DNA of 29,629 nucleotides from a virus, in IMG/VR virus record IMGVR_UViG_3300027917_000135, positions 1 to 29,629 of that record, one strand, 5' to 3'. The translations under genes and the position numbers were made by a program. Each line of letters starts with the position of its first letter. The first letter of the stretch is position 1. Below are positions 7,774 through 29,382 of the stretch, piece by piece. The notes under the pieces were generated by a model. It was given only the letters and a program-made list of their open reading frames with translations, was not told where the DNA came from and did not search any database.

Positions 7774-8100
7774 ATGACTATAAAAATACTAGTAATGGTA
7801 AATGGGGATCAGGTTATTTCACAAGTTAAAGAAATATCTGAGTCTGTGGTAAATGACTCCTATTATGTACTTTTTAGTCCATGGAAAGTTACACCTTTAA
7901 TGGATGAGCCTTTGTTACTGCAAGAAGAAGTCATAGCAGAAACAGATGACGATATAAAAGTTCAGATTGAACCGTGGATTAGATTATCGGGAAGCAAAAA
8001 TATAATTGTTAAGCCTACCTCGGTCCTTGCAATTACTGATCCTATTGTTTCATTAATGGAACTATATAAAGAAAAAACACAAACTACAATTAAAGACTAA
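7774..8100 (+). CDS. small protein of unknown function, paralogue of the next gene
   Basis: 108 residues, not recognised. It opens with short strands and a VNGDQVISQVKEI segment, ends with EPWIRLSG..., then TSVLAITDPIVSLMELYKE. The size and 'K-I-x-V-x-x-N-G-d-x-V-I' opening resemble Sm/LSm-like small beta-barrels, but this is impression only. The next gene (8102-8353) has the same layout, so the two look like a tandem duplication. Both lie directly upstream of gp43 with almost no spacing, so co-expression with the polymerase is likely. Confidence 0.65.
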   Translation: MTIKILVMVNGDQVISQVKEISESVVNDSYYVLFSPWKVTPLMDEPLLLQEEVIAETDDDIKVQIEPWIRLSGSKNIIVKPTSVLAITDPIVSLMELYKEKTQTTIKD

Positions 8101-8101
8101 T

Positions 8102-8353
8102 ATGAACATTCAGTGCATAGTTTTATCAAATAAAGTATTAATTAGTACAGTAGAAGAAGTAGCCAGTGAACTTGGAGAACCTGATTGTAAGTTAATAAAT
8201 CCATATGAGATTAAAAGTTGCAATCCAATTGAACTTGTGCCTTGGTTAGATTGTACATTCGATACTGAATTCATGATACACTCTACGAATATACTAACAA
8301 TAGCAAAACCAACAGATAAACTTATAGAATCATACAAACAAATTATTAAGTAA
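8102..8353 (+). CDS. small protein of unknown function, tandem paralogue
   Basis: 83 residues. It shares with the preceding protein a hydrophobic N-terminal strand followed by S-T-V-E-E-V, a V-P-W-L position, and the C-terminal pattern S-T-N-I-L-T-I-A-K-P-x-D-K-L-I-E-S-Y-K. The middle is shorter. Only one base separates it from the preceding stop, and the gp43 N-terminal gene starts one base after its own stop. Function unknown. Confidence 0.62.
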   Translation: MNIQCIVLSNKVLISTVEEVASELGEPDCKLINPYEIKSCNPIELVPWLDCTFDTEFMIHSTNILTIAKPTDKLIESYKQIIK

Positions 8354-8354
8354 C

Positions 8355-9878
8355 ATGAGTACAAAGTTTTATACCAATGTAAAACAATATGGAAATAACT
8401 TTTTAGTCAGGGGATATGAGGATGGCCAGGAATTTAGAATCAAAGAAAAGTTTAGTCCAAAGCTTTATGTGGCGACAAAGAATAAAACCCCATTCAAGAC
8501 TCTAGATGAAAAGTATGTCAAAGAGATACAGCCAGGGTCAGTCAGAGAATGTAAAGATTTCATGGCCAAATATAAAGATGTAGAAGGATTTGAGATTTAT
8601 GGTAATGACAGGTTTACTTATCAGTACATTTCTGAAACTTATCCAGAAGAAACAATTAATTTTGATATTAAAGAGATTAAATTATATACAATAGACATTG
8701 AAGTTGCATCTGAAAATGGATTTCCCGATCAAGTAGAATGTATTGAAGAAGTTCTTTTAATTACCATACAGGATTACAACACTAAAAAGATTATTACATG
8801 GGGAGTACGACCATTTTATACCGATAAGCCCAATGTTACTTTTATTCACTGTACGGACGAATACGATCTTTTAAATAGATTCTTAGCATATTGGGTAGAT
8901 AATACTCCTGATGTAATTACTGGATGGAATTGTACCTATTATGATATTCCGTATATTTGTGGAAGAATTGAAAAAATTCTGGGTGAAAAAAAACTAAATA
9001 GCTTATCTCCTTGGAAGTCGGTATATTCTAAAGAAGTTATAGATAATAACAAAGTCAACGTTTATTATGATATTGGTGGAGTATCTCAGTTAGACTATAT
9101 GTTGCTTTATAAGAAGTTTACATATGTGACTAGAGAATCGTATAGTTTAGATCATATTGCAAGTGTTGAGTTAGGGGAAACTAAACTAGACCACACACAA
9201 TTTGAAACATTTAAAGAGTTTTATAGTGGAGACTTTATTGTTTCACCTGATGAAGATATAGATCCAACTACTATTAGGTATCTAGGAAAGCTTCGGTCAA
9301 TGATATATCAAAGACTAGAAGGCAAAGATCTAATTGAACCTGTAAAAATTAAGGTAAATTTTGCCTCACAAAAACAGATTAAATTTCTTGAAGAAAATAT
9401 TAAGAAATTAGATCTAGGAATCTTAAAATACATTTATGTAATACTTGATGGATACATAAAAAAACAGTGCTGGGATCTATTTACCAATTACAACATCATT
9501 GACGTTGAGCTAGTAGATAAGCTTGAGGATAAATTAAAGTTGGTTGAGCTGGCGATTACTATGGCATATGACGCCAAAGTAAATTATGAAGATGTATTCT
9601 ATCAAGTTAGGATGTGGGACGTAATCATTTACAATTACCTAAAGAAAAGGAATGTTGTAGTACCAAAATCACAGAGTACAGTCAAGAAAGAAAAGTATCC
9701 GGGAGCTTATGTAAAGGAGCCAATACCTGGAAAATATGATTACGTTGTGAACTTTGACTTAGACTCTCTGTATCCTCACATTATTATGCAATATAGCATT
9801 AGTCCAGAGACTCTTGTTCCTATTGATGAAATAAACGATAGAATATCTCAACTTGAAGCACAGTTGGCAAATGCCTGA
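8355..9878 (+). CDS. 43: DNA polymerase gp43, N-terminal fragment (exonuclease + motif A)
   Basis: 507 residues covering the first half of a T4-type family B polymerase. The 3'-5' exonuclease motifs are present: Exo I TIDIEV (D114, E116), Exo II GWNCTYYDIPY (D197), Exo III NYNIIDVELVD (D383). Palm motif A FDLDSLYP (467-474) is followed by SISPETL, after which the protein leaves the family pattern: about 20 residues (VPIDEINDRISQLEAQLANA) and a stop. Motifs B and C are encoded 3 kb downstream (12920-14305). Residues about 294-370 are an insertion relative to T4 gp43 between Exo II and Exo III. A terminator follows immediately. The frame is not simply damaged: the tail has a regular heptad pattern (I-I-I-L-L spaced 3,4,3,4). 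Confidence 0.92.
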   Translation: MSTKFYTNVKQYGNNFLVRGYEDGQEFRIKEKFSPKLYVATKNKTPFKTLDEKYVKEIQPGSVRECKDFMAKYKDVEGFEIYGNDRFTYQYISETYPEETINFDIKEIKLYTIDIEVASENGFPDQVECIEEVLLITIQDYNTKKIITWGVRPFYTDKPNVTFIHCTDEYDLLNRFLAYWVDNTPDVITGWNCTYYDIPYICGRIEKILGEKKLNSLSPWKSVYSKEVIDNNKVNVYYDIGGVSQLDYMLLYKKFTYVTRESYSLDHIASVELGETKLDHTQFETFKEFYSGDFIVSPDEDIDPTTIRYLGKLRSMIYQRLEGKDLIEPVKIKVNFASQKQIKFLEENIKKLDLGILKYIYVILDGYIKKQCWDLFTNYNIIDVELVDKLEDKLKLVELAITMAYDAKVNYEDVFYQVRMWDVIIYNYLKKRNVVVPKSQSTVKKEKYPGAYVKEPIPGKYDYVVNFDLDSLYPHIIMQYSISPETLVPIDEINDRISQLEAQLANA

Positions 9879-9882
9879 CTGT

Positions 9883-9909
9883 GCCACTTTTTTAAGTGGC
9901 CATTTTTTT
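9883..9909 (+). terminator. rho-independent terminator after the gp43 N-terminal fragment
   Basis: gccactt (9883-9889) pairs with aagtggc (9894-9900), TTTT loop, followed by a T-run (9903-9909). It separates the N-terminal fragment's transcript from the inserted genes. Confidence 0.75.
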
Positions 9910-9959
9910 CTCCACTTCCCTTTGGGGTTGATATTCTTGTGTTGTTAATGGAGTTAATT

Positions 9960-10094
9960 ATGAAAACCGGATTTGCTATTACTTTTATAGTTGGACTGGC
10001 CAGTGTCGCCATTTTTTGGTGGCTTCCTCAAAAATGGGAAGCATGTTCTAACCAATTTGATAACATTATTCTTCGTCTCGCTTGCATGGATTAA
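9960..10094 (+). CDS. 44-residue membrane protein
   Basis: A short frame, ATG 9960 to TAA 10092-10094, with a ribosome site GGAG (9950-9953) six bases upstream. Residues 5-23 form one hydrophobic span ending in FWWLP, followed by a polar tail with two cysteines. It is the first gene of the segment separating the two gp43 fragments. Not recognised; the good ribosome site and single clean transmembrane helix support it being real. Confidence 0.5.
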   Translation: MKTGFAITFIVGLASVAIFWWLPQKWEACSNQFDNIILRLACMD

Positions 10095-10096
10095 TC

Positions 10097-10162
10097 ATGA
10101 AAATTATCTTTGACTCTAACGGAAAACCAAAAGTTTAATTTGAATTTGATGTAAAGGATTAG
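10097..10162 (+). pseudogene. possible mini-gene with an in-frame stop
   Basis: ATG at 10097 reads MKIIFDSNGKPKV then TAA (10136-10138); the same frame continues FEFDVKD to TAG at 10160-10162. The continuation looks protein-like, as if a CAA codon had become TAA. It is too short to be sure, and may be non-coding spacer. The remainder to 10217 is AT-rich with no further feature seen. Confidence 0.2.
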
Positions 10163-10217
10163 GTTTTTTTAAAGACTCTCCTGAATTATTAAACTCTACT
10201 ATTAGGTACTTAACCCC

Positions 10218-11249
10218 ATGACAAGAAAATTAGCTACTATTAGAAAAATTAAAGATATTAGAGAAATCCCAACAGCAGATAAGATTTGTTCTTATCTTGT
10301 AGATGGATGGTGGGTAGTGGATTCAATCAATAAGTATAAAATAGATGAAGAGGTAATTTATGTAGAAATTGACTCCTGGGTGCCTCATAGTATTGCCCCA
10401 TTTCTTTCTAAAGGCAGAGAGCCAAGAGAGTATAATGGAATTTTAGGAGAAAGACTAAAAACTCAAAAATTCTTGAATACCCTTTCTCAAGGTCTTCTGC
10501 TTCCTATTTCTGTATTAAATGAAGATATTGATAAACATGTTAATGGCGATTATTCTTCCGTTTTGAATATCCAAAAATGGGAAGCCCCTATTCCTGCACA
10601 ACTGAGCGGAAAGGTAAAAGGCAATTTCCCTGGATACATTCCTAAGACAGACCAAGAACGTTGCCAGAATCTTTATGTTGAAATCTTTGGTGATCATGCA
10701 GTAGAGTATTTTGAGGTTACTGAAAAGCTTGAAGGATCCAGCATGACTGTATATGTCAAAGATGGAGAAGTTGGTGTTTGCAGTCGTAACTGGGATCTTA
10801 CTGAGGATGATAGAAATACTCTCTGGAAAGTTGCCAGGGATATTGGTCTTGTCGATTATCTTAAGAACTATTATAATCGCAATATTGCCATTCAAGGAGA
10901 ACTTATTGGTGAAGGCATCCAGAAAAATTACTACGGAATCAAAGGTCATCAATTTCATGTATTTGATGTTTATGACATTGATGCTGGAGGATACTGGAAT
11001 CCTGTCACTCGGAAAAACTGGATCGGTTCTCTTCCCCTCCAGGGGCTGCACCACGTCCCTGTGGTCGATCCCTGCTATGATATGACCGGAATGGCTAAAG
11101 GCGGCATAGACGGGCTCCTGGTCATGGCTGAGGGTAAGTCCGTCCTGAACCCCCAGAAGCAAAGGGAAGGGATTGTGTTTAAGTCCTATGACACGGATTT
11201 TCACTTCAAATCCATTTCCAATAGGTATCTTCTTAAGCAAAAGGATTAA
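10218..11249 (+). CDS. RNA ligase, DRB0094 (Rnl5)-type
   Basis: 343 residues. An N-terminal domain of about 150 residues, OB-like in this family, precedes a nucleotidyltransferase domain with motif I E-K170-L-E-G, the lysine that takes AMP. Downstream are SRNWDL (motif Ia/III region), QGELIGEG, REGIVFKS (motif IV) and FKSISNRYLLK (motif V). The layout matches the Deinococcus DRB0094 ligase family, which seals 3'-OH/5'-phosphate ends in nicked duplex RNA; T4-like phages use RNA ligases to repair tRNA cut by host defences. It sits inside the gp43 split. Bases about 11020-11180 are much richer in G+C than the rest although the frame is intact. Confidence 0.85.
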   Translation: MTRKLATIRKIKDIREIPTADKICSYLVDGWWVVDSINKYKIDEEVIYVEIDSWVPHSIAPFLSKGREPREYNGILGERLKTQKFLNTLSQGLLLPISVLNEDIDKHVNGDYSSVLNIQKWEAPIPAQLSGKVKGNFPGYIPKTDQERCQNLYVEIFGDHAVEYFEVTEKLEGSSMTVYVKDGEVGVCSRNWDLTEDDRNTLWKVARDIGLVDYLKNYYNRNIAIQGELIGEGIQKNYYGIKGHQFHVFDVYDIDAGGYWNPVTRKNWIGSLPLQGLHHVPVVDPCYDMTGMAKGGIDGLLVMAEGKSVLNPQKQREGIVFKSYDTDFHFKSISNRYLLKQKD

Positions 11250-11252
11250 ATT

Positions 11253-11753
11253 ATGATCATATTTTTTATCTTTCCATTAATTGTTTTTATTTTATTTGAC
11301 ATTATGGTACTACAGTGTGCCGTTAGAGACTCTATATTGACTTTTTTCTCTTTTGCAAAGAGAGGATTTAGTAATCAAACATCTGTGAAGTTTTTTGTAA
11401 ATGAGCAAATAACTCTGGGTGGGGATTCATCTTATTACATTACTCAGAATACTTATTTGGGGACATCTAAGAAGCCCACTTGTGTCTTATATTATTCTCG
11501 ATATGAAGATTCACATTTAAGAGATTTGTATCTTATACATGGTTTAAAATACAAAGAACAACTAGAATCATCTGCTAGATTTAGGTTTAATCACAATATG
11601 ACACATCTTGCAATGTATGATAGTTACTCCGAAGTAATGGAAGTGTGTCTTGAATTGAGAACAAAGTATGAAGAGAGGGAACAAGAGCAACTCCAGAAAG
11701 AAGAGAATCAAAGTTTAAAGCAAGTCATAAAAGTGAATACTTATGAGGTATAA
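11253..11753 (+). CDS. membrane-anchored protein of unknown function
   Basis: 166 residues. The first 22 are very hydrophobic (MIIFFIFPLIVFILFDIMVL), a signal anchor without an obvious cleavage site. The remainder is soluble and ends in a charged, glutamine/glutamate-rich helical tail (about 135-156), probably a coiled coil. It starts three bases after the RNA ligase stop, so the two are likely co-transcribed. No family recognised. Confidence 0.6.
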   Translation: MIIFFIFPLIVFILFDIMVLQCAVRDSILTFFSFAKRGFSNQTSVKFFVNEQITLGGDSSYYITQNTYLGTSKKPTCVLYYSRYEDSHLRDLYLIHGLKYKEQLESSARFRFNHNMTHLAMYDSYSEVMEVCLELRTKYEEREQEQLQKEENQSLKQVIKVNTYEV

Positions 11754-11757
11754 TAAT

Positions 11758-11783
11758 AGTGGACACTTTCTGTAGCGTCCACT
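11758..11783 (+). terminator. hairpin between the unknown gene and clpS
   Basis: agtggac (11758-11764) pairs with gtccact (11777-11783), 7 bp, 12-nt loop, no T-run. Same style as the hairpins at 2497 and 7142, each followed by a C/T-rich stretch and a new gene. Confidence 0.4.
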
Positions 11784-11788
11784 TGACC

Positions 11789-11817
11789 TTGCCTCCACTG
11801 CCGTTTCGGATTATTGT
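11789..11817 (+). promoter_or_regulatory. weak promoter-like pair upstream of clpS
   Basis: TTGCCT (11789-11794) and TATTGT (11812-11817), 17 bp apart, each matching the sigma70 consensus at only four of six positions. Placement after a hairpin and before an isolated gene is the main support. Confidence 0.22.
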
Positions 11818-11841
11818 AAATTCATTACTGCCATTTTAATC

Positions 11842-12147
11842 ATGCCTACTATTGAAGCACCTAAAGTAGTTGAAACCGCTGACGTTCAAGCTAAGCCTAA
11901 ATTTTATCCAAATTATCGTGTGTTGCTGCACAATGATGATGAAGTGTTTGCTGGGCTAGTTATTGAGGCTCTTATGAAGCATATTCCCAAGATGAACGAA
12001 CAGAAAGCCGTTGCTATAATGATGCAAGCGCATCAAACTGGCGTCGGTGAGGTTATTGTATGTAACCAAGAACATGCTGAAATGTACCAAATGCTTCTGC
12101 AAAACGAGGGCCTTACCATCACGATTGAGCCTGTAGATGTTGGGTGA
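11842..12147 (+). CDS. clpS: ClpS-like Clp protease adaptor
   Basis: 101 residues with the ClpS hallmark YRVLLHNDDEVF (25-36), the N-D-D being the motif that contacts the alpha-amino group of N-degron substrates, and a conserved histidine in AHQTGVGEV (H64). A flexible N-terminal extension (1-22), present in all ClpS proteins, contacts ClpC/ClpA. ClpS delivers proteins with destabilising N-terminal residues to the Clp protease. A phage copy could redirect host proteolysis. It is flanked by hairpins and lies inside the gp43 split, like an independently acquired cassette. Confidence 0.82.
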   Translation: MPTIEAPKVVETADVQAKPKFYPNYRVLLHNDDEVFAGLVIEALMKHIPKMNEQKAVAIMMQAHQTGVGEVIVCNQEHAEMYQMLLQNEGLTITIEPVDVG

Positions 12148-12149
12148 TA

Positions 12150-12167
12150 GACAGTTTTTTATCTGTC
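12150..12167 (+). terminator. small hairpin after clpS
   Basis: gacag (12150-12154) with ctgtc (12163-12167), five pairs, T-rich loop, overlapping the clpS stop region. Weak on its own; noted because it repeats the CTGTCC 3' arm seen elsewhere. Confidence 0.3.
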
Positions 12168-12227
12168 CATTTCACTCTAGAGTAGATCGCCAAGACTGAT
12201 AGGATACCCACATCTGAAAAGAAAAAA

Positions 12228-12917
12228 ATGACTCCAAATTTTGCTTTCGTCTCCGATGTCCACTCGCAGGCTGACAAGCTTCGACATGCTCTTGATTTCT
12301 GTAAAGAAAACAATCTGACTCCTATTTTTCTTGGTGATCTTTTTGATTCTAAGTGTGATGTTTCTGATAGCTTTGGAACTTACACTTTAGTTCGCAAAGC
12401 ACAAGATGAAATGAATGCCATCGTACTTCAATCTAACCATCAGAACAAGCTTATTCGATACCTCCATGGTAATGATGTAGTTCAAAATTGTGGACTTGAT
12501 GTGACTATCAGGCAACTGTTTGAAGAAAATGATCTTGATAGGGTTGAAATCTGCAATTGGCTAGAATCTTTCCCGTATGGTATTGCTTTTAGGTCAGTGG
12601 ATGGTGTAGAATACCGAGCAGCTCATGCATACTTTTCATCTAAGCTCCTTGTAGATTCTTATGATGATTATTTTCTTATTAAAGATGTAAATAAGAAGTT
12701 CAAAAATCAAATTCTCTATGGGATCTTTAGTAGCCGTAATAGAATTGAGTGGTGGAAAAGTGATCGAAATCATGGGGTAAACTGGATCAGGGTCTCTGGT
12801 CATTATCACACTCTACATATTGATTCTCAATCGTTGGTATTGGATGGATGTTGTGGAGAAGAATATGGGAATCTTCTTGTCTACGACGTAAATAGTTTAA
12901 AGTTACATGCATTTTAA
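12228..12917 (+). CDS. calcineurin-like metallophosphoesterase
   Basis: 229 residues with the metallophosphoesterase motifs in order: SDVHSQ (D10, H12), GDLFDS (D37), QSNHQN (N70, H71, in place of GNHE), AAHAYF, and GHYHT near the end. These ligate two metals and hydrolyse phosphomono- or diesters; related phage enzymes act on phosphoproteins, nucleotides or RNA ends. It is the last gene before the C-terminal gp43 fragment, two bases apart, so that fragment is probably translated by coupling from this message. Context near an RNA ligase makes RNA end healing one possibility. Confidence 0.83.
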   Translation: MTPNFAFVSDVHSQADKLRHALDFCKENNLTPIFLGDLFDSKCDVSDSFGTYTLVRKAQDEMNAIVLQSNHQNKLIRYLHGNDVVQNCGLDVTIRQLFEENDLDRVEICNWLESFPYGIAFRSVDGVEYRAAHAYFSSKLLVDSYDDYFLIKDVNKKFKNQILYGIFSSRNRIEWWKSDRNHGVNWIRVSGHYHTLHIDSQSLVLDGCCGEEYGNLLVYDVNSLKLHAF

Positions 12918-12919
12918 AT

Positions 12920-14305
12920 ATGAGTTGGAAAGATCCAAATGAAATGACAAAAGAAGAGATTCTATCGGAGATAGAGTCTCTTAAAAAAATAAGAAAGATA
13001 TCATCTGAAATAACAGTTGAAGGACTTTTGAATAAAGTATATGATCTAAGTCCCCTTCGGGACTTAGATTTTACTATTGCGCCTAATGGAGCAATCTACA
13101 GGCGGGTCAATGGGGTTCTTCCTGCACTTATGGAAAAGATGTACAATGAAAGAGTCATCTATAAGACTAAGATGATCGAAGAAAAGAAGAAACTAGAAAG
13201 ACTGGAGAATGATAAAAATGTAGATGCTTCAATCATAACAAAAACTAAAAAAGAGATTTCTAGATGCCATAATATTCAGATGGCAAAAAAGATTTCTTTA
13301 AATTCCGCCTATGGATCTTGTGGCAATGAATACTTTAGGTATTATAAGTTAGATAATGCAAAAGCCATTACATACTCAGGGAAGTGTGTAATTCAGTGGA
13401 TTGAAAGGAAATTTAATCAGTATCTTAATACAATAGTAAAGACAGAAGGTGTTGACTATGTAATTGCATCCGACACTGATAGTATTTACTTGAATATTGG
13501 TCCTCTTGTAGATTTGGTTTATCAAGGTAAAGAACGAAACGAAGAGTCAATTATCAACTTCTTAGACAAAGTATGTAAGACAAAGTTTGATGAATTTATT
13601 AAGAAGTCCTTTAATGAGCTTGGTGAATATATGAATGTTCATAAACAGAAAATGTCTATGAAAAGAGAAAATATTGCTAGCACAGGGATTTGGACTTCTA
13701 AAAAACATTATATTTTGAATGTTTGGGATAGTGAAGGGGTTAGGTATCAGCATCCTAAGTTAAAAATGATTGGCATTGAAGCAGTTAAGTCATCTACTCC
13801 TGCTATATGTCGCAAAATGATGAAGGAAACTATAGAACTTATTGTTTCTGGGGCAACTGAAAATGAAGTTATAGATTTTATCGAACAGAAAAAAGAACAA
13901 TTTAAACAGATGCCTATTAATCAAATATCATTTCCTAGAAGTGTTAATAACATAAAAAAATATCATTCATCAGTATCCATATACGCAAAGAGTTGTCCCG
14001 TGCATGTACGGGGTGCATTGTTATACAACAATTACGTTAAGAAGAAAAATTTAACGAACAAATACCCCCTAATAAATAGTGGAGATAAGATTAAATACAT
14101 TTATCTATCCGTTCCTAATCCGATCCATGAGAATATAATTACATATATTCAGAGGTTCCCTAAGGAGCTAGAGCTTGACAGATACATTGATTATGAGCTA
14201 CAATTTGAAAAGAGTTTCCTCAAGCCAATCGAAAGTATATTAAATGTAATTGGATGGAAATCGCAAAAAACAAACACATTAAGTCAATTTTTAGTATCAA
14301 GATAA
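12920..14305 (+). CDS. 43: DNA polymerase gp43, C-terminal fragment (motifs B and C, thumb)
   Basis: 461 residues completing gp43. Family sequence resumes at about residue 31 (ITVEGLLNKV, then IAPNGAIYRR). Motif B is KKISLNSAYGSCGNEY (123-138), motif C ASDTDSIYL (D185, D187), followed by the KKHYILNVWD segment and the thumb. The first 30 residues do not belong to the polymerase core; they are charged and helical (EEILSEIESLKKI) and could pair with the tail of the N-terminal fragment. There is no intein C-terminus (no H-N junction). Neither fragment alone can polymerise because catalytic aspartates are divided between motif A and motif C. No Shine-Dalgarno is visible. Confidence 0.92.
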   Translation: MSWKDPNEMTKEEILSEIESLKKIRKISSEITVEGLLNKVYDLSPLRDLDFTIAPNGAIYRRVNGVLPALMEKMYNERVIYKTKMIEEKKKLERLENDKNVDASIITKTKKEISRCHNIQMAKKISLNSAYGSCGNEYFRYYKLDNAKAITYSGKCVIQWIERKFNQYLNTIVKTEGVDYVIASDTDSIYLNIGPLVDLVYQGKERNEESIINFLDKVCKTKFDEFIKKSFNELGEYMNVHKQKMSMKRENIASTGIWTSKKHYILNVWDSEGVRYQHPKLKMIGIEAVKSSTPAICRKMMKETIELIVSGATENEVIDFIEQKKEQFKQMPINQISFPRSVNNIKKYHSSVSIYAKSCPVHVRGALLYNNYVKKKNLTNKYPLINSGDKIKYIYLSVPNPIHENIITYIQRFPKELELDRYIDYELQFEKSFLKPIESILNVIGWKSQKTNTLSQFLVSR

Positions 14306-14308
14306 CAT

Positions 14309-15310
14309 ATGGATTTTTTAAAGGACATTATAAAGGAAGTAGGTGGAGAATATACGAAAATAGCATCAGACATTGTTGAAGAAGAACGGTTTATAGATAC
14401 AGGATCGTTAATATTCAATGCTTTACTATCAGGATCATTATATGATGGTGTTTCTGAAAATAAAATTACTGCATTAGCGGGAAAACAAAGTACAGGTAAG
14501 ACTTATTTTGCTTTAGCTATTGTAAAGCATTTCTTGGATCAAAATCCAGGATCTTGCTGCATATATTTTGATACAGAGTCTGCTGTAACAAAATCACTAC
14601 TTTCAAGTAGGGGTATCGAGTTAGACCGAGTTTTGGTTATCAATGTAGTAACAATCGAAGAGTTTAGAATTAAGTCTTTGAAGCTTCTTTCTCACTACTT
14701 AAAAAAGCCAGAAGATGAAAGACCAAAGATGCTCATGGTATTAGACTCTCTAGGTATGTTATCCTCAAATAAAGAGATTGAAGATACCCTAGGTGAAAAG
14801 AACACTAAGGACATGACAAAAGCGGCATTAATCAAAGGAGCATTTAGGATGCTGACTCTTAAATTAGGAGTGGCTAACGTTCCAATGATTGTGACCAACC
14901 ACACATATGAAACTATGAGTCTCTATTCAACAGAGGAAATGTCTGGTGGTTCAGGTCTCAAATACGCTGCATCAACTATTATCTACTTAAGCAAAAAGAA
15001 GGAGAAAGAAGGAACTGAAATTATTGGAAACATCATTAAAGCAAAAACAAACAAGTCCAGATTTAGTAAGGAAAATCAAGAAGTAGAGGTTCGTCTATTC
15101 TATGATGACCGAGGATTAGATCGTTATTATGGTCTTTTAGAATTAGGAGAAATGGGAGGGTTATGGCAAAATAAAGCCGGTAGATATGAGATCGATGGGA
15201 AGAAAGTATTCGGCAAAGAGATACTTAGAAATCCTCAAGATTATTTCACCGAAGAAATAATGGAAAAACTCAATAATCTCGCTAAGTTATATTATAGTTA
15301 TGGTCAATGA
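14309..15310 (+). CDS. uvsX: UvsX recombinase (RecA-like)
   Basis: 333 residues with Walker A GKQSTGKT (58-65), Walker B MLMVLDS (141-147) and the RecA-core glycine-rich GGSGLKYAASTI segment. It forms filaments on single-stranded DNA and drives recombination-dependent replication and repair. It is shorter than T4 UvsX (391) but typical of cyanophages. It starts three bases after gp43's C-terminal fragment, and its TGA overlaps the gp41 ATG. Confidence 0.92.
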   Translation: MDFLKDIIKEVGGEYTKIASDIVEEERFIDTGSLIFNALLSGSLYDGVSENKITALAGKQSTGKTYFALAIVKHFLDQNPGSCCIYFDTESAVTKSLLSSRGIELDRVLVINVVTIEEFRIKSLKLLSHYLKKPEDERPKMLMVLDSLGMLSSNKEIEDTLGEKNTKDMTKAALIKGAFRMLTLKLGVANVPMIVTNHTYETMSLYSTEEMSGGSGLKYAASTIIYLSKKKEKEGTEIIGNIIKAKTNKSRFSKENQEVEVRLFYDDRGLDRYYGLLELGEMGGLWQNKAGRYEIDGKKVFGKEILRNPQDYFTEEIMEKLNNLAKLYYSYGQ

Positions 15311-23970: not shown

Positions 23971-25023
23971 ATGAACAAAGATACTAAAGTAGTAAAGAGA
24001 TCTGGAAATCAAGAATATCTAGATCTGAATAAATTACATATAATGGTAGAAGAAGCATGTAAAGATTTAGCTGGGGTATCTGCTTCACAAGTTGAGATAA
24101 CTTCTGGAATTCAGTTTTATGATGGTATTACAACAAAAGAAATTCAAGAGATTTTAATTCGTTCTGCATCAGATTTAATCAGTCTTGAGCATCCAAACTA
24201 TCAATATGTTGCTGCAAGACTTCTTTTGTTTTCAATTCGTAAACAGATTTATGGTCGTCAAAGAGACCTTCCTGATCTAGAAACACATATTATTAATTGT
24301 GTTCAATCTAAAGTATATGATGAAGAAATCCTCTCAAATTATTCTAAAGAAGAGATTGAAAAAGCTAACACTTACATCGATCATGAACGGGACATGCTAT
24401 TCACTTACGCAGGTTTACGTCAGGTCGTTGATAAATACCTTGTGCAAGATCGAAGCAGTGGTGGAGTATATGAAACTCCACAGTTTATGTACATGATGAT
24501 TGCTTTGACTAAGTTCTCAAGATACCCTAAAGAAATTAGATTATCTTATGTTAAGAGGTATTACGATGCGATTTCCAAACACAAAATCAACATTCCTACA
24601 CCAATCATGGCAGGGGTTAGAACCTCACTTCGTCAATTTGCAAGTTGCGTTCTTGTTGATGTTGATGACACCCTCCCTAGTATTGAGTCTAGTGATTCTG
24701 CAATCTTTAGGTATGTTGCGCAAAGAGCAGGAATTGGTATCAACCCAGGCAGAATCCGTGGCATCAACAGTAAAATCAGAGGTGGAGAAGTTATTCACAC
24801 AGGTGTTATTCCATTCCTCAAAAAGTTTGAAGCAACTGTCAGATCTTGCACTCAAAATGGCATCAGAGGTGGATGTTTTGACTCAGAATCTGAAGTTTTG
24901 ATAGTAGAATCTATTGAAATTGATGGAAAAACATATGATATGGATGATGAGATTGATGGGGTTAAAGTTATTGATATTATAAATAATCATAACGGAAATA
25001 ATACCATTATGCATAAAGAATAA
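23971..25023 (+). CDS. nrdA: ribonucleotide reductase NrdA, part 1, fused to intein-1 N-fragment
   Basis: 350 residues. Residues 1-301 are NrdA: an ATP-cone (VVKRSGNQEYLDLNKL onward), then the ten-stranded barrel start with the catalytic-pair cysteine in FASCVLVDVDD, ending CTQNGIRGG. Residue C302 begins an intein: CFDSESEVLIVES is block A, then 49 residues in all to the stop (24874-25020). The extein resumes as SATVHFPIWHQE at 26414. A homing endonuclease gene starts on the very next base after the stop (TAAATG). Class I alpha subunits reduce NDPs to dNDPs. Confidence 0.93.
   Translation: MNKDTKVVKRSGNQEYLDLNKLHIMVEEACKDLAGVSASQVEITSGIQFYDGITTKEIQEILIRSASDLISLEHPNYQYVAARLLLFSIRKQIYGRQRDLPDLETHIINCVQSKVYDEEILSNYSKEEIEKANTYIDHERDMLFTYAGLRQVVDKYLVQDRSSGGVYETPQFMYMMIALTKFSRYPKEIRLSYVKRYYDAISKHKINIPTPIMAGVRTSLRQFASCVLVDVDDTLPSIESSDSAIFRYVAQRAGIGINPGRIRGINSKIRGGEVIHTGVIPFLKKFEATVRSCTQNGIRGGCFDSESEVLIVESIEIDGKTYDMDDEIDGVKVIDIINNHNGNNTIMHKE
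24874..25020 (+). mobile_element. split intein 1, N-fragment (49 residues)
   Basis: Begins with the nucleophilic cysteine after RGG and contains only block A. Block B is not here but on the C-fragment, so the break is much earlier than the usual site between blocks B and F. Confidence 0.85.
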
Positions 25024-26019
25024 ATGGAAAACTTAATTTGGACCTCGGAAAATCTTAAAAAAAGTAAGTCTCCATTTAGTATATACTTTTATCTTAAAAA
25101 AACGGATGGAGATTATAATAGTGCTAAAAAACTTTATGATGATTTTTTAGAAAAAAAATCTCCATTTAGGGATCCAAAAAATAGACCCAATACTATTGAT
25201 TATTGGGTCTTTAGGGGTTATTCCGAAGATGATGCTAAACTAAAAGTTAGTGAGGTTCAATCAAAACCTATTGATTTGAATGAATATATCAAAAAATATG
25301 GAGAAGAAGAAGGATTAGAAAAATACAATAAAAGAAAAGAGAATCTACAAAATAGATTTGAAGTAGAAATTAAGAATACGCAAACAAAAATACAATGTGA
25401 TTATGATACTGCCTATGATATTGTGTGCAACAAAAAACGAAAATGTTCTCCAAGAACTCTTGACTATTGGATGTCTAAGGGATTTTCAATGGAAGAATCC
25501 AAAGAATTAGTATCTAAACATCAAAAAGAAAATAGTCCAAGATCTGTTTATTATTGGGTTAAAATCGGATATAGTGAAGATGATGCATTAATTAAAGTTA
25601 GAGAATATCAAGATAATATATCAATAGAATCTATTTCAAAAAGATATTCTTGTGATAAAATGACTGCACTTGATATACAAGAATCTATTCTTGAAAAGGT
25701 AAAATTTACAAGAATCAAAAAGAATATGAATATTGATATTGCTAATGATTATGAATATTTTGTTTATAAGAAATTGGTAAATAAAGAAACTCAAAAAACT
25801 TTAAGACTGAATAAAAAAACATTTGTTAAAAAAAATAAATCAGATTCTTTAGATCATAAGTATAGTATTTTTTGGGGGTTTTATAATGACGTTCCTGCAA
25901 AAATAATTGGTTCAATTCATAATTTAGAATATATTTCTTTATCTGAAAATTGTAAAAAACAAACAAATTGCTCTATAGATCTTAAAACTTTATTGGAAAG
26001 GTATGAAAATGGAAATTAA
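25024..26019 (+). CDS. free-standing homing endonuclease inside split intein 1
   Basis: 331 residues. Three copies of a module of about 23 residues, T-[IL]-D-Y-W-x-x-x-G-[YF]-S-[EM]-[DE]-[DE], at about 57-79, 145-167 and 174-196, look like DNA-reading helices. A KYGEEEGLEKYNKR segment lies between them. The C-terminus has an HNH-like nuclease signature: D277-H278-K, then N300-L-E and N309-x-x-K. No LAGLIDADG motif is seen. The composition is very A-rich compared with the flanking NrdA coding sequence. It would cut intein-free nrdA alleles to spread the whole arrangement. Confidence 0.82.
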   Translation: MENLIWTSENLKKSKSPFSIYFYLKKTDGDYNSAKKLYDDFLEKKSPFRDPKNRPNTIDYWVFRGYSEDDAKLKVSEVQSKPIDLNEYIKKYGEEEGLEKYNKRKENLQNRFEVEIKNTQTKIQCDYDTAYDIVCNKKRKCSPRTLDYWMSKGFSMEESKELVSKHQKENSPRSVYYWVKIGYSEDDALIKVREYQDNISIESISKRYSCDKMTALDIQESILEKVKFTRIKKNMNIDIANDYEYFVYKKLVNKETQKTLRLNKKTFVKKNKSDSLDHKYSIFWGFYNDVPAKIIGSIHNLEYISLSENCKKQTNCSIDLKTLLERYENGN

Positions 26020-26413
26020 AATAAATCTCACAAAGAAAAAAATCTCTAATATTTCTGTGGGAGATAATGTTTATTGTTATGATGAATTTAATGACTTGTT
26101 TTGTGTAAATAAAGTTTCTAATACTTTTACACCAACTATCAAAAAGAATTATCAAGAAAAAATCATTATTGGTGATAAAGAAACATTGTATACTTCAAGT
26201 ATTCATCCTTTTTATGATTCTAAAAATAAAGTATGGAAGGAAGCACAGGAAATTGAAGATATTTATGGAATAGATGAAACTGGTAAAGAAGTGATTGTTA
26301 AAAACGATCATTCTTATACTTCACAAATTGATGAAACTTTTTATGATTTTACTGTAGATCATTATCATAATTATTTTGTTGGTAAAAATAATACTTTTGT
26401 TTTAACTCATAAT
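26003..26413 (+). mobile_element. split intein 1, C-fragment (about 137 residues)
   Basis: Carries blocks B, F and G. The final residues VLTHN followed by S are a canonical intein C-terminus and +1 nucleophile. Confidence 0.85.
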
Positions 26414-27715
26414 TCTGCAACTGTCCATTTTCCAATATGGCATCAAGAAATAGAAGATATTTTAGTTCTTAAAAACAATAAAGGAACTGAAGATAATCGT
26501 GTTCGTAAATTAGACTATTCAATTCAATTAAGTAAAATATTCTATGAAAGGTTTATTCAAGACGGTGAAATTACACTTTTCTCCCCGCATGATGTACCTG
26601 GATTATATGATTCTTTTGGAACGGACAAGTTTGACGATCTCTATGTTTCATATGAGAAAGATCCGACCATTAAGAAAAAGACTGTTAAGGCACAAGAACT
26701 TATTCTTACTCTCCTCAAAGAACGTGCTGAAACGGGTCGTATCTATATTATGAACATTGACCATTGTAATTCTCATAGTTCATTTAAGGATCAGATTACA
26801 ATGTCAAACCTTTGCGCCGAAATAACTTTGCCGTCTACACCACTTCAACACATTGATGATGACAATGAATCCGAAATCGCAACGTGCATTCTATCTGCAA
26901 TCAACGTTGGTAAAGTGAAGTCTGATGAAGAATTGGAAGAACTTTGTGATCTTGCAGTTCGTTCTTTAGATGAACTGATTGACTATCAAGATTATCCAGT
27001 TAAGGCAGCAGAAAACTTCACAAAACGTCGTCGTGCTCTTGGAATTGGTTATATTGGTCTTGCTCATTACCTCGCAAAACTTGGATTTAATTACGATTCT
27101 CAAGAAGCATGGGATGCTGTTCATAGTCTTTCTGAAAGTTTTCAGTATTACCTATTAAAGGCATCTAATCAACTTGCAAAAGAAAAGGGTCATTGTGAAT
27201 ACTTTAGTCGTACTAAGTATGCTGAAGGAATTCTTCCAATTGATACCTATAAAAAAGAAGTAGACAAAATTTCATCAATTCCATTACAGCATGATTGGGA
27301 ATCTCTTAGGGCATCTATCCTACAATACGGTCTTAGGAACTCAACATTGTCCGCACAAATGCCAAGTGAATCTTGTCTTTTTTGGGAACATAAAATAATG
27401 ACTTCAGAAGGTGAATTTGATTTTCACCAAATTTGCGAAATGAATAATATTGATTGGAAAACAATTGAAATGAAGGATCTTGTTGGGTGGCATAATTTGA
27501 TTAATCCAATTCAAGTACCAACTTTAGATGGTCGTAAACAAGTTGATAAAATTTATTATAACGGTATGAAAGAGGTTATTACTTTAGTTATGGAAAATGG
27601 GAAGGAAATTAAATGTACTCCTACTCATAAGTTTTTGGTTAAAGGTGAATTTGAGAATGAAATTTGGAAATGTGCTTGTGATTTGACTGAGGATGATGAT
27701 ATAATGGAGTTCTGA
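26003..27715 (+). CDS. nrdA: NrdA middle part flanked by intein-1 C-fragment and intein-2 N-fragment
   Basis: 570 residues in three segments. Residues 1-137 (26003-26413) are the C-part of intein 1: ISVGDNVYCYDE, block B-like LYTSSIHPFYD, block F FYDFTVDHYHNYFVG, and the H-N end, with Ser at +1. Residues 138-457 (26414-27373) are NrdA extein, including NLCAEITLPSTP and ATCILSAINVG, which carry the catalytic cysteines, ending AQMPSES. Residues 458-570 (27374-27712) are the N-part of intein 2, starting CLFWEHKIM. The start overlaps the endonuclease gene by 17 nt; an ATG at 26009 is also possible and better spaced from AAAGG. This ORF must splice at both ends. Confidence 0.92.
   Translation: MKMEIKINLTKKKISNISVGDNVYCYDEFNDLFCVNKVSNTFTPTIKKNYQEKIIIGDKETLYTSSIHPFYDSKNKVWKEAQEIEDIYGIDETGKEVIVKNDHSYTSQIDETFYDFTVDHYHNYFVGKNNTFVLTHNSATVHFPIWHQEIEDILVLKNNKGTEDNRVRKLDYSIQLSKIFYERFIQDGEITLFSPHDVPGLYDSFGTDKFDDLYVSYEKDPTIKKKTVKAQELILTLLKERAETGRIYIMNIDHCNSHSSFKDQITMSNLCAEITLPSTPLQHIDDDNESEIATCILSAINVGKVKSDEELEELCDLAVRSLDELIDYQDYPVKAAENFTKRRRALGIGYIGLAHYLAKLGFNYDSQEAWDAVHSLSESFQYYLLKASNQLAKEKGHCEYFSRTKYAEGILPIDTYKKEVDKISSIPLQHDWESLRASILQYGLRNSTLSAQMPSESCLFWEHKIMTSEGEFDFHQICEMNNIDWKTIEMKDLVGWHNLINPIQVPTLDGRKQVDKIYYNGMKEVITLVMENGKEIKCTPTHKFLVKGEFENEIWKCACDLTEDDDIMEF
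27374..27712 (+). mobile_element. split intein 2, N-fragment (113 residues)
   Basis: Starts with Cys after MPSES and contains block A plus block B (IKCTPTHKFLV), ending LTEDDDIMEF: a conventional N-intein length. Confidence 0.87.
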
Positions 27716-27721
27716 TTATAA

Positions 27722-27769
27722 AGCGTAAATGCCTAAAAACACAAATAAAATATAGAGGGCATCTACGCT
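27722..27769 (+). repeat. inverted repeat / stem-loop before the second homing endonuclease
   Basis: agcgtaaatgcc (27722-27733) pairs with ggcatctacgct (27758-27769), 11 of 12 positions, with a 24-nt loop. It fills the only gap between intein-2 N-fragment and the endonuclease gene, and ends 10 bases before the ATG. Confidence 0.75.
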
Positions 27770-27779
27770 ATTTACACTT

Positions 27780-28856
27780 ATGCAAAAAATATGCAAAATT
27801 CTTACTAATAAATTTAATGTTACAGATCCGAAAAGTTTTATTCAAGAAATAAAAAAAACTGGATATGTAACAAAGAACTATCGTTTTCTTGAAAATATTT
27901 TTTTAGAACTTCCTCCTGAAAAATTTAACCAAAAAATTATATTAAAATTAGTTAAATTTGTCTCTGAGTATAAAAAATCAAAAATTTCATTATCATACGA
28001 ACCTATGTATTGGTCTTTGCGAAAAAATATTCCATTAGATGAATCGCAAAAAATTGTAGATGATTACAAATCAAACAAATCAACTTCTAAAAATGGATTT
28101 ATAAAAAGACACGGAAAAAATAAAGGAAGTGAGATGTATCAAACTTTTCAAAAAAGTAGTGCATATTCATCTTCCGATGAGTGGTTTATTAAAAAATATG
28201 GAGAAAAGTGGAAAGAACAAAAAGAATACGATATGCGTCGTAAATCAAAAAGGTGTTTAGAATACTGGACTTATCGTGGTTATACCTTAGAAGAATCCAA
28301 AATAAAAGTATGCGAATATCAAATATCCACATCCGGTGTTCATAAAAAATATTATGAAGAAAGAGGTTATAGTGATGAAGAAATTAATGTGATTTTAACT
28401 CATATTAATCATAAGAAGAAAAATCATATAAGAAATACTAATTATCTAAAAGAAAAATATCCAGATTCTTGGAAGGAAATATATTTAGAATCTTCTGAGA
28501 AATATAGAAAAAGAATGGAAGAATTAGGAGTTTGGATTGAAAAAAGTATTATTGATGATTTTAAGAAATATAAAAGTCTTGTAAATAGATATACGAATGA
28601 AAGTTTATTATTTTATGGTAAACTTGTTGAAAAGTTAGAAATGAGATCTAAAGATTTCCATTTAGATCATAAGTATTCAATTAAAATGGGATTTATTAAC
28701 GACATTGATCCTAAAATTATAGGATCGGTGATTAATGTGGAAATCATTCCATCAAAAATTAATTCTTCTAAAAAAGAAAAATGTTCAATCACAAAACAAC
28801 AATTAATTAAAGAATACACCAAATTTAAGGAGAAAAATGAAAGTAAAGCAAATTAA
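27780..28856 (+). CDS. free-standing homing endonuclease inside split intein 2
   Basis: 358 residues, paralogous to the endonuclease at 25024. The C-terminal nuclease signature is D296-H297-K, then N319-V-E and N328-x-x-K-K. The modules CLEYWTYRGYTLEESKIKV (about 159-177) and a looser EPMYWSLRK...DESQKIV (about 74-93) recur, with FIKRHGKNKGSEMY and FIKKYGEKWKEQ between them. The N-terminal 70 residues are unique. Very A-rich. The stop lies 20 nt inside the next ORF. Confidence 0.82.
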   Translation: MQKICKILTNKFNVTDPKSFIQEIKKTGYVTKNYRFLENIFLELPPEKFNQKIILKLVKFVSEYKKSKISLSYEPMYWSLRKNIPLDESQKIVDDYKSNKSTSKNGFIKRHGKNKGSEMYQTFQKSSAYSSSDEWFIKKYGEKWKEQKEYDMRRKSKRCLEYWTYRGYTLEESKIKVCEYQISTSGVHKKYYEERGYSDEEINVILTHINHKKKNHIRNTNYLKEKYPDSWKEIYLESSEKYRKRMEELGVWIEKSIIDDFKKYKSLVNRYTNESLLFYGKLVEKLEMRSKDFHLDHKYSIKMGFINDIDPKIIGSVINVEIIPSKINSSKKEKCSITKQQLIKEYTKFKEKNESKAN

Positions 28857-28941
28857 ATTTACAGGAGAAGCACTTCCAACCTATGATATAGAAGTTCCTG
28901 ATGTTCATCACTATAATTGTGAGGGACTAGTTTCTCATAAC
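28837..28941 (+). mobile_element. split intein 2, C-fragment (35 residues)
   Basis: A 35-residue C-intein ending in H-N before Ser, the standard length for naturally split inteins. Confidence 0.88.
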
Positions 28942-29382
28942 AGTTCAGTAGTATCAAACGCAACCAATGGAATTGAACCCCCCAGAGACTTCTTGTCCAT
29001 TAAGAAATCCAAAAAAGGTCCTCTTAAGCAAATTGTTCCACAGTATCAATCTCTTAAGAACCATTATACGCTTCTTTGGGATATGCCTAGCAATCATGGT
29101 TATATCAATATTGTTGCTGTGATGCAGAAGTTCTTTGACCAAGCAATTTCTGCTAATACCAGTTATAATCCAGAGAACTACCCAAATAATGAGGTTCCTG
29201 TGAGTGTTCTTGCACATGATTTACTGTATTATTATTCAGTTGGTGCAAAAACACTTTATTATCAAAATACTTATGATATTAAATCTGATGAGGTAGTAGA
29301 TGACCCAAAACAAGAACTTCAATCTTTACTAAATGACATGTCAAAATCTGATCAAGAAAATTGTGAGAGTTGCACTGTTTAA
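28837..29382 (+). CDS. nrdA: intein-2 C-fragment fused to NrdA C-terminal part
   Basis: 181 residues. Residues 1-35 (28837-28941) are the C-intein with block F YDIEVPDVHHYNCEG and the end LVSHN, +1 Ser. The extein then runs SSVVSNATNGIEPPR to the C-terminus, which ends in NCESCTV: the redox cysteine pair that reloads the active site. AAGGAG lies just before the ATG. Joined with the other parts, NrdA would be 301+320+146 = 767 residues, close to the usual size (T4 NrdA 754). Confidence 0.92.
   Translation: MKVKQIKFTGEALPTYDIEVPDVHHYNCEGLVSHNSSVVSNATNGIEPPRDFLSIKKSKKGPLKQIVPQYQSLKNHYTLLWDMPSNHGYINIVAVMQKFFDQAISANTSYNPENYPNNEVPVSVLAHDLLYYYSVGAKTLYYQNTYDIKSDEVVDDPKQELQSLLNDMSKSDQENCESCTV

Follow-up and report, generated by a model that had tools for sequence, protein, structure and literature searches.

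To our knowledge, the general view of homing endonucleases is that they can spare the gene of their host only from within an intron or intein or at an intergenic site, and the split-gene cases that we know of are few. Dassa and colleagues reportedly described in 2009 fractured essential phage genes in metagenomic data, with a homing-endonuclease gene between the halves and split-intein pieces that are spliced. In Aeromonas phage 25, the T4-type DNA polymerase gp43 comes in two parts, 43A and 43B, which co-purify and are active in DNA polymerisation (PMC2988022). The nrdA gene of Aeromonas phage Aeh1 is split by the free-standing homing endonuclease mobE, and its two polypeptides yield an active enzyme without splicing (PMC2988022). 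The splitting of gp43 and nrdA by homing endonucleases is already known. Here the split gene 43 of the IMG/VR virus record IMGVR_UViG_3300027917_000135 was analysed within positions 1 to 29,629 of that record (29,629 nucleotides, referred to as the window). We consider it likely that gene 43 of the window holds the descendant of a mobile cassette that splits the gene, and that the halves of the polymerase assemble through helices carried by that cassette, without intron or intein.

The polymerase is encoded on the plus strand by two open reading frames (ORFs), an N-half of 507 aa (8355-9878) and a C-half of 461 aa (12920-14305). The gap between them spans 3,041 nt and is filled by genes unrelated to gp43. 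The N-half comprises the exonuclease domain and the first part of the palm, up to motif A (DLDSLYP, about 9756-9776), and Pfam recognised the exonuclease domain and DNA_pol_B in it. Its end reads SISPETL-VPIDEINDRISQLEAQLANA. In the C-half, 30 residues precede ITVEGLL, followed by the remaining palm, the fingers, motif B (NIQMAKKISLNSAYG, about 13271-13318), motif C (SDTDS, about 13469-13483) and the thumb. When both were aligned with phrog_262, the T4-type DNA polymerase family of 856 positions, the N-half covered 7-429 (E 7e-158) and the C-half 435-851 (E 7e-159); since these stretches adjoin, the catalytic core is complete. The Exo motifs and motifs A, B and C were all found to be kept by direct reading. 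The model of the C-half matched RB69 gp43 with a Foldseek E of 5e-30 and a template modelling (TM) score of 0.80 by query. With the Exo motifs, palm motifs A and C, motif B and an RB69-like fold, the protein belongs to the T4-type family B DNA polymerases. No intein domain was found by Pfam in either half, which, together with the ORFs, the phrog_262 matches and the motifs, bears out the sequence-only reading of a gp43 split between motifs A and B without an intein. Split-intein identity of the broken ends was considered and rejected, the Cys/Ser start of an N-intein and the HN end of a C-intein both being absent. The Rfam search of the window gave no match and no group I or group II intron structure at the break, and no tRNA was detected. 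An independent assembly of 99.9% identity separately confirmed both broken ends: one of its contigs (L082) contains the N-half and ends at 10104, and another (L002) starts at 11300 and contains the C-half. The RNA-ligase stretch between these positions is supported by a single assembly.

The break follows SISPETL, downstream of motif A and ahead of the fingers; in an intact relative, the match to RB69 stops at RB69 residue 431. In Aeromonas phage 25, by comparison of the 43A end (AIKKILASRGIKTDH), the gene is broken about 70 residues downstream, at the fingers tip. The window has neither a break at the fingers tip nor a homing-endonuclease gene between the halves, and hence does not belong to the phage 25 type. 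The Aeromonas-type position (site 2, the position of the window being site 1) is also broken in several environmental contigs. In Synechococcus phage ACG-2014f (NC_026927, 125217-128233; L330), two coding sequences (CDS) of 491 and 325 aa are annotated as gp43, with two small ORFs between them, and its break is apparently of the Aeromonas type. The belief that no cyanophage example existed was thus mistaken.

Other viruses were searched for the same split, as the sequence-only reading had proposed, and at least 78 further contigs sharing the break and the tails were found. Protein scans of viral contigs returned about 20 contigs with the break of the window. A 24-nt DNA pattern from the start of the C-half matched 84 stretches, and the counts of spacers and splits given here cover the 80 listed, 78 of which were gp43 C-halves. 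Among these listed matches, the gene was split in all 69 cases in which the N-half was present on the contig, and fused in none. Five relatives on contigs of 60-114 kb contained one N-half each and no more. One candidate, L047, was left out, as its gene is intact apart from one in-frame stop.

The spacers of the 78 listed loci contained a full HNH nuclease gene (45), a full gene of GIY-YIG type (14), a short remnant (11) or a 47-nt gap without recognisable gene (2), and in six the contig started inside the spacer. These figures count contigs and not events, several loci being from the same or near-identical phages. HNH was called at Pfam level (2e-8), and GIY-YIG at 1.5e-4, which is under the Pfam cut-off. 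Both nuclease types have a helix-turn-helix-like module in common, which one type has at its N-terminus and the other at its C-terminus. The remnants retain the 3' end of the nuclease gene, adjoining the start of the C-half, which suggests that the translation signals of the C-half lie there. The 3-kb gene set of the window had been proposed as the cause of the split; with a nuclease gene, its remnant or just 47 nt in the gaps of relatives, this finds no support. The window shares with its relatives the break after SPETL and the homologous N tail and C head. A nuclease gene or remnant is absent from its spacer, as it is from L371 and L375, which are splits without nuclease. Eight of the 45 listed HNH loci also contained a small zinc-ribbon-like ORF and four a Dam-type methylase. 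The methylase was seen between the nuclease and the gp43 C-half in L351, L362, L368, L372, L231 and L012, and the zinc-ribbon-like ORF at the same place in L003, L008 and L238.

Mobility of the unit was evident from pairs of closely related alleles. At the DNA level, a split contig (L016) and an intact one (L177) were 97-100% identical until 61 nt before the SLYP codons, and 77-87% identical over the motif A region, after which the unit is present in one and absent in the other. Identity was 83% at nt 161-220 of the C-half and returned to 96-100% from nt 221. The pairs L009/L188 and L004/L057 displayed the same pattern on the right side. In these relatives the differences from an empty allele that is near-identical elsewhere are confined to the unit and its bounded flanks, as in a homing cassette. 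Between L023 and L185 the spacer was 99.0%, the tail 98% and the head 100% identical, while the gp43 bodies were just 69% and 76% identical. Such a unit, 99% identical between genes of 69-76% identity, needs recent horizontal transfer. The bounded tract of L016/L177 and the spacer of L023/L185 bear the signature of homing with co-conversion. In a tree built from the polymerase backbone minus the tract, the split state required 14 changes, at least 12 of them forced by well supported branches. Constraining the split sequences to one clade was rejected by the approximately unbiased (AU) test, with p 8e-15 when the window was included and a still smaller value when it was left out.

The short sequences at the broken ends were analysed likewise. 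The N tail of the window (VPIDEINDRISQLEAQLANA, 9816-9875) was homologous to the VSMDDINNRIAELEKML tails of relatives and the C head (MSWKDPNEMTKEEILSEIESLKKIRKISSE, 12920-13009) to their MWKDVRKMSREEIVEELEALKQVRELSNK heads; in both cases none of 2,000 shuffles was as good. Intact relatives that lack the tails have about 9 residues at the site where split polymerases have about 47. In the relatives, the tail had a ratio of nonsynonymous to synonymous polymorphism (pN/pS) of 0.31 and the head one of 0.30, near the 0.25 and 0.23 of the polymerase bodies, which indicates that the tails are maintained by purifying selection. Residues 11-30 of the C head were modelled as a helix, with a predicted local distance difference test (pLDDT) of 92-95. 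In Synechococcus phage S-CAM7, gp43 is intact and the loop past motif A corresponds to tail and head fused (2 and 0 of 2,000 shuffles as good, respectively), predicted as a helical hairpin at the position of the break. The near-identical polymerase of L237 has two confidently predicted helices there, at residues 415-426 and 433-448 (pLDDT about 96). Compared directly with the tails of the window, the S-CAM7 loop gave no significant match to the N tail and a marginal one to the head; the link between them passes through the tails of the relatives. The tails had been taken for an acquisition of this phage alone, which is contradicted by their presence in at least 78 other contigs and by the fused form of S-CAM7. 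Most likely, the tails derive from a hairpin within a single protein that was cut at its tip, and would now pair between two proteins.

The following course of events could account for these observations. At the core of the cassette would be a free-standing homing-endonuclease gene, with DNA on either side that encodes a short helix: on one side the tail closing the N-half, on the other the head opening the C-half. Its nuclease would cut the intact gp43 allele of a co-infecting phage, and repair would copy the cassette-bearing allele. Between motif A and the fingers, a short loop would thereby give way to the tail, a stop codon, the nuclease gene, a start codon and the head, and the polymerase would henceforth be made as two proteins. 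The two helices most likely pair between these proteins and hold the palm together, and the enzyme would remain active without an intron or intein. Once the gene is split the nuclease would be dispensable, the tails and the break would stay, and other genes could land in the gap. In the window, an RNA ligase, an ORF of unknown function, ClpS and a phosphoesterase-like protein would have replaced the nuclease. A more general proposal is a new way of tolerating mobile elements, in which a homing-endonuclease cassette has protein "handles" on its two sides in the form of paired helices, so that insertion turns an essential enzyme into two subunits that assemble by themselves. The cassette would spread repeatedly among polymerase alleles, swap HNH and GIY-YIG nucleases on the shared helix-turn-helix-like module and leave permanent two-subunit polymerases after loss of the nuclease. 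We regard this proposal as slightly more probable than not.

On a branch of 0.74 changes per site, deep and long in the polymerase tree, the window makes most sense as an old split allele that kept its tails, gained cargo and, it appears, lost its nuclease. The RNA ligase/ClpS gene set looks like later cargo and not the cause of the split, and the split site seems to collect cargo.

Several observations weigh against this reading. A homing-endonuclease gene or nuclease remnant was searched for in the window and none was found, so that a nuclease-bearing past would follow from tail homology only. The position of the window in the tree is unsure, its branch being long. The changes counted on the tree mix gains and losses, and may in part reflect a return to the intact allele. 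At least one HNH copy, that of L023 (HEVYH), looks damaged, and the nuclease activity of the cassette genes is putative. Of the helical tails described by the sequence-only reading, it was confirmed that they are extra, that they are homologous at both broken ends and that the C head is helical in the model. The amphipathic spacing fared less well: about 3% of shuffles were as good as the N tail, which is weak taken alone, and the C head was no better than shuffled sequence, so that the "coiled coil" is a structural guess. Two-subunit assembly is suggested by the conserved catalytic motifs, the selection on both halves and the precedent of phage 25.

The distribution of the split could also stem from a single ancestral event followed by vertical inheritance, in which case the intact relatives would be re-fusions or products of ordinary recombination with intact alleles and the nuclease a passenger. 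The tree change counts do not separate gain from loss, S-CAM7 could be a re-fused allele, and the deep position of the window suits an old split. Nevertheless, the recent transfer demanded by L023 and L185, together with the presence of a nuclease in the gap of most copies, makes this history unlikely. Far less probable is a split of the window's gp43 by the 3-kb cassette, with a small coiled coil acquired independently afterwards. The cassette does resemble no relative's, and the G+C of this cargo is 0.37 compared with 0.32, but many contigs without these cargo genes have the same tails and break, and both helices are found fused in S-CAM7.

Rejoining of the halves by a split intein or a trans-splicing intron deserves mention because the NrdA gene of the same window is fractured by two split inteins, and the phage thus hosts such elements. 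We give it hardly any credence for gp43, since the 20-aa tail and the 30-aa head are too short, the tail starts without Cys and no HN precedes the C extein, and the head is a plain helix in the model, with no Rfam intron present. An assembly error or a decaying pseudogene is just as implausible. The stretch 10104-11300 does occur in one assembly alone; against such an artefact, independent contigs back both broken ends, the same break was observed in many samples, the catalytic motifs are all present and the polymerase bodies of the relatives have pN/pS of 0.23-0.25.

The gap contains four genes on the plus strand. The RNA ligase (10218-11249) was identified by Pfam RNA_ligase (5e-26), the OB-fold of PHA02142 and phrog_968. 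Its relatives, 41-51% identical, occur at 16 loci in unrelated contexts and were dropped as a pointer to the origin of the cargo, since other genes of the window are absent in all but one of them (L323). It is followed by an ORF of unknown function (11253-11753, no Pfam or PHROG match), a ClpS-type protease adaptor (11842-12147; Pfam ClpS 7e-15; G+C 0.43 compared with 0.33 for the window) and a phosphoesterase-like protein (12228-12917; phrog_246 NinI-like phosphatase 7e-5, phrog_8238 4.5e-9, no Pfam match). The ClpS adaptor gene stands in a T4-like cyanophage-type genome, and its sole PHROG counterpart is weak (phrog_27368).

Three terminator-like hairpins were detected on the plus strand at or just past the N-half stop (9858-9927), the strongest at 9883-9900 and followed by CATTTTTTTC; the region has 8 terminator-like sites compared with 2.8 expected in shuffles. 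These hairpins suggest that the C-half is probably transcribed separately, on its own. The promoter scan of 8000-14500 was uninformative (23 sites, 28 expected by chance). A 12-pair hairpin with a TTCG loop lies in the coding sequence of the C-half at 13043-13070, about 120 nt past its start. The N-half contains an insertion of about 78 residues (9234-9467, plus strand) immediately upstream of the ExoIII region; relatives match residues 3-293 and 372-506 and nothing between, and the insertion was seen in none of the relatives examined.

Elsewhere in the window, NrdA (23971-29382) is encoded by three ORFs with two apparent split inteins (Pfam PT-HINT 3e-11, Intein_splicing 4e-10). Between the halves of each lies a homing-endonuclease-like ORF (25024-26019 and 27780-28856, both phrog_5104). 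The first intein is split atypically, into an N piece of about 49 aa and a C piece of about 137 aa ending in VLTHN, and the second normally, into about 112 and 35 aa, ending in VSHN.

As far as the tools used and the open literature reach, the break site, the homologous helical tails that accompany the nuclease, repeated transfer from allele to allele and the fused-hairpin counterpart are new; searches of the open-licence literature did not find gp43 described as split at this position. The comparisons suggest that a reusable unit has brought its own re-assembly helices into a polymerase core many times in T4-like cyanophage-type viruses, and that an essential enzyme can be divided into two parts with neither intron nor intein to mend it. 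How split phage enzymes re-assemble would become directly testable, given the natural matched sets: the fused hairpin of S-CAM7, the near-identical alleles L016/L177, the nuclease-free L371/L375 and the window as the extreme form. A natural split site is also on offer for engineered two-part polymerases.

Among the described systems, Aeromonas phages 25 and 44RR (43A and 43B, with the seg43 homing endonuclease or IC-UTS) resemble the window in having a T4-type gp43 in two ORFs. Phage 25 has a homing-endonuclease gene between the halves, as do most site-1 relatives, but its break is at the fingers tip, 43B also has a group I intron, and the sources consulted mention no pair of helical tails that moves with the nuclease. 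ACG-2014f is likewise a cyanophage isolate with two gp43 CDS and the same regA-hsp20-gp43-uvsX neighbourhood, although it is split at site 2, not at the motif A site, with short ORFs between. The fractured split-intein genes have a homing endonuclease between the halves as well, and differ from gp43 in the intein, which gp43 lacks. S-CAM7 shares the neighbourhood and has both helices in the loop past motif A, in a single intact polymerase of 867 aa without a nuclease gene. Finally, nrdA of Aeh1 is a different gene, and the gp43 unit differs from it in bringing its own helical tails and in hopping between alleles at one site.

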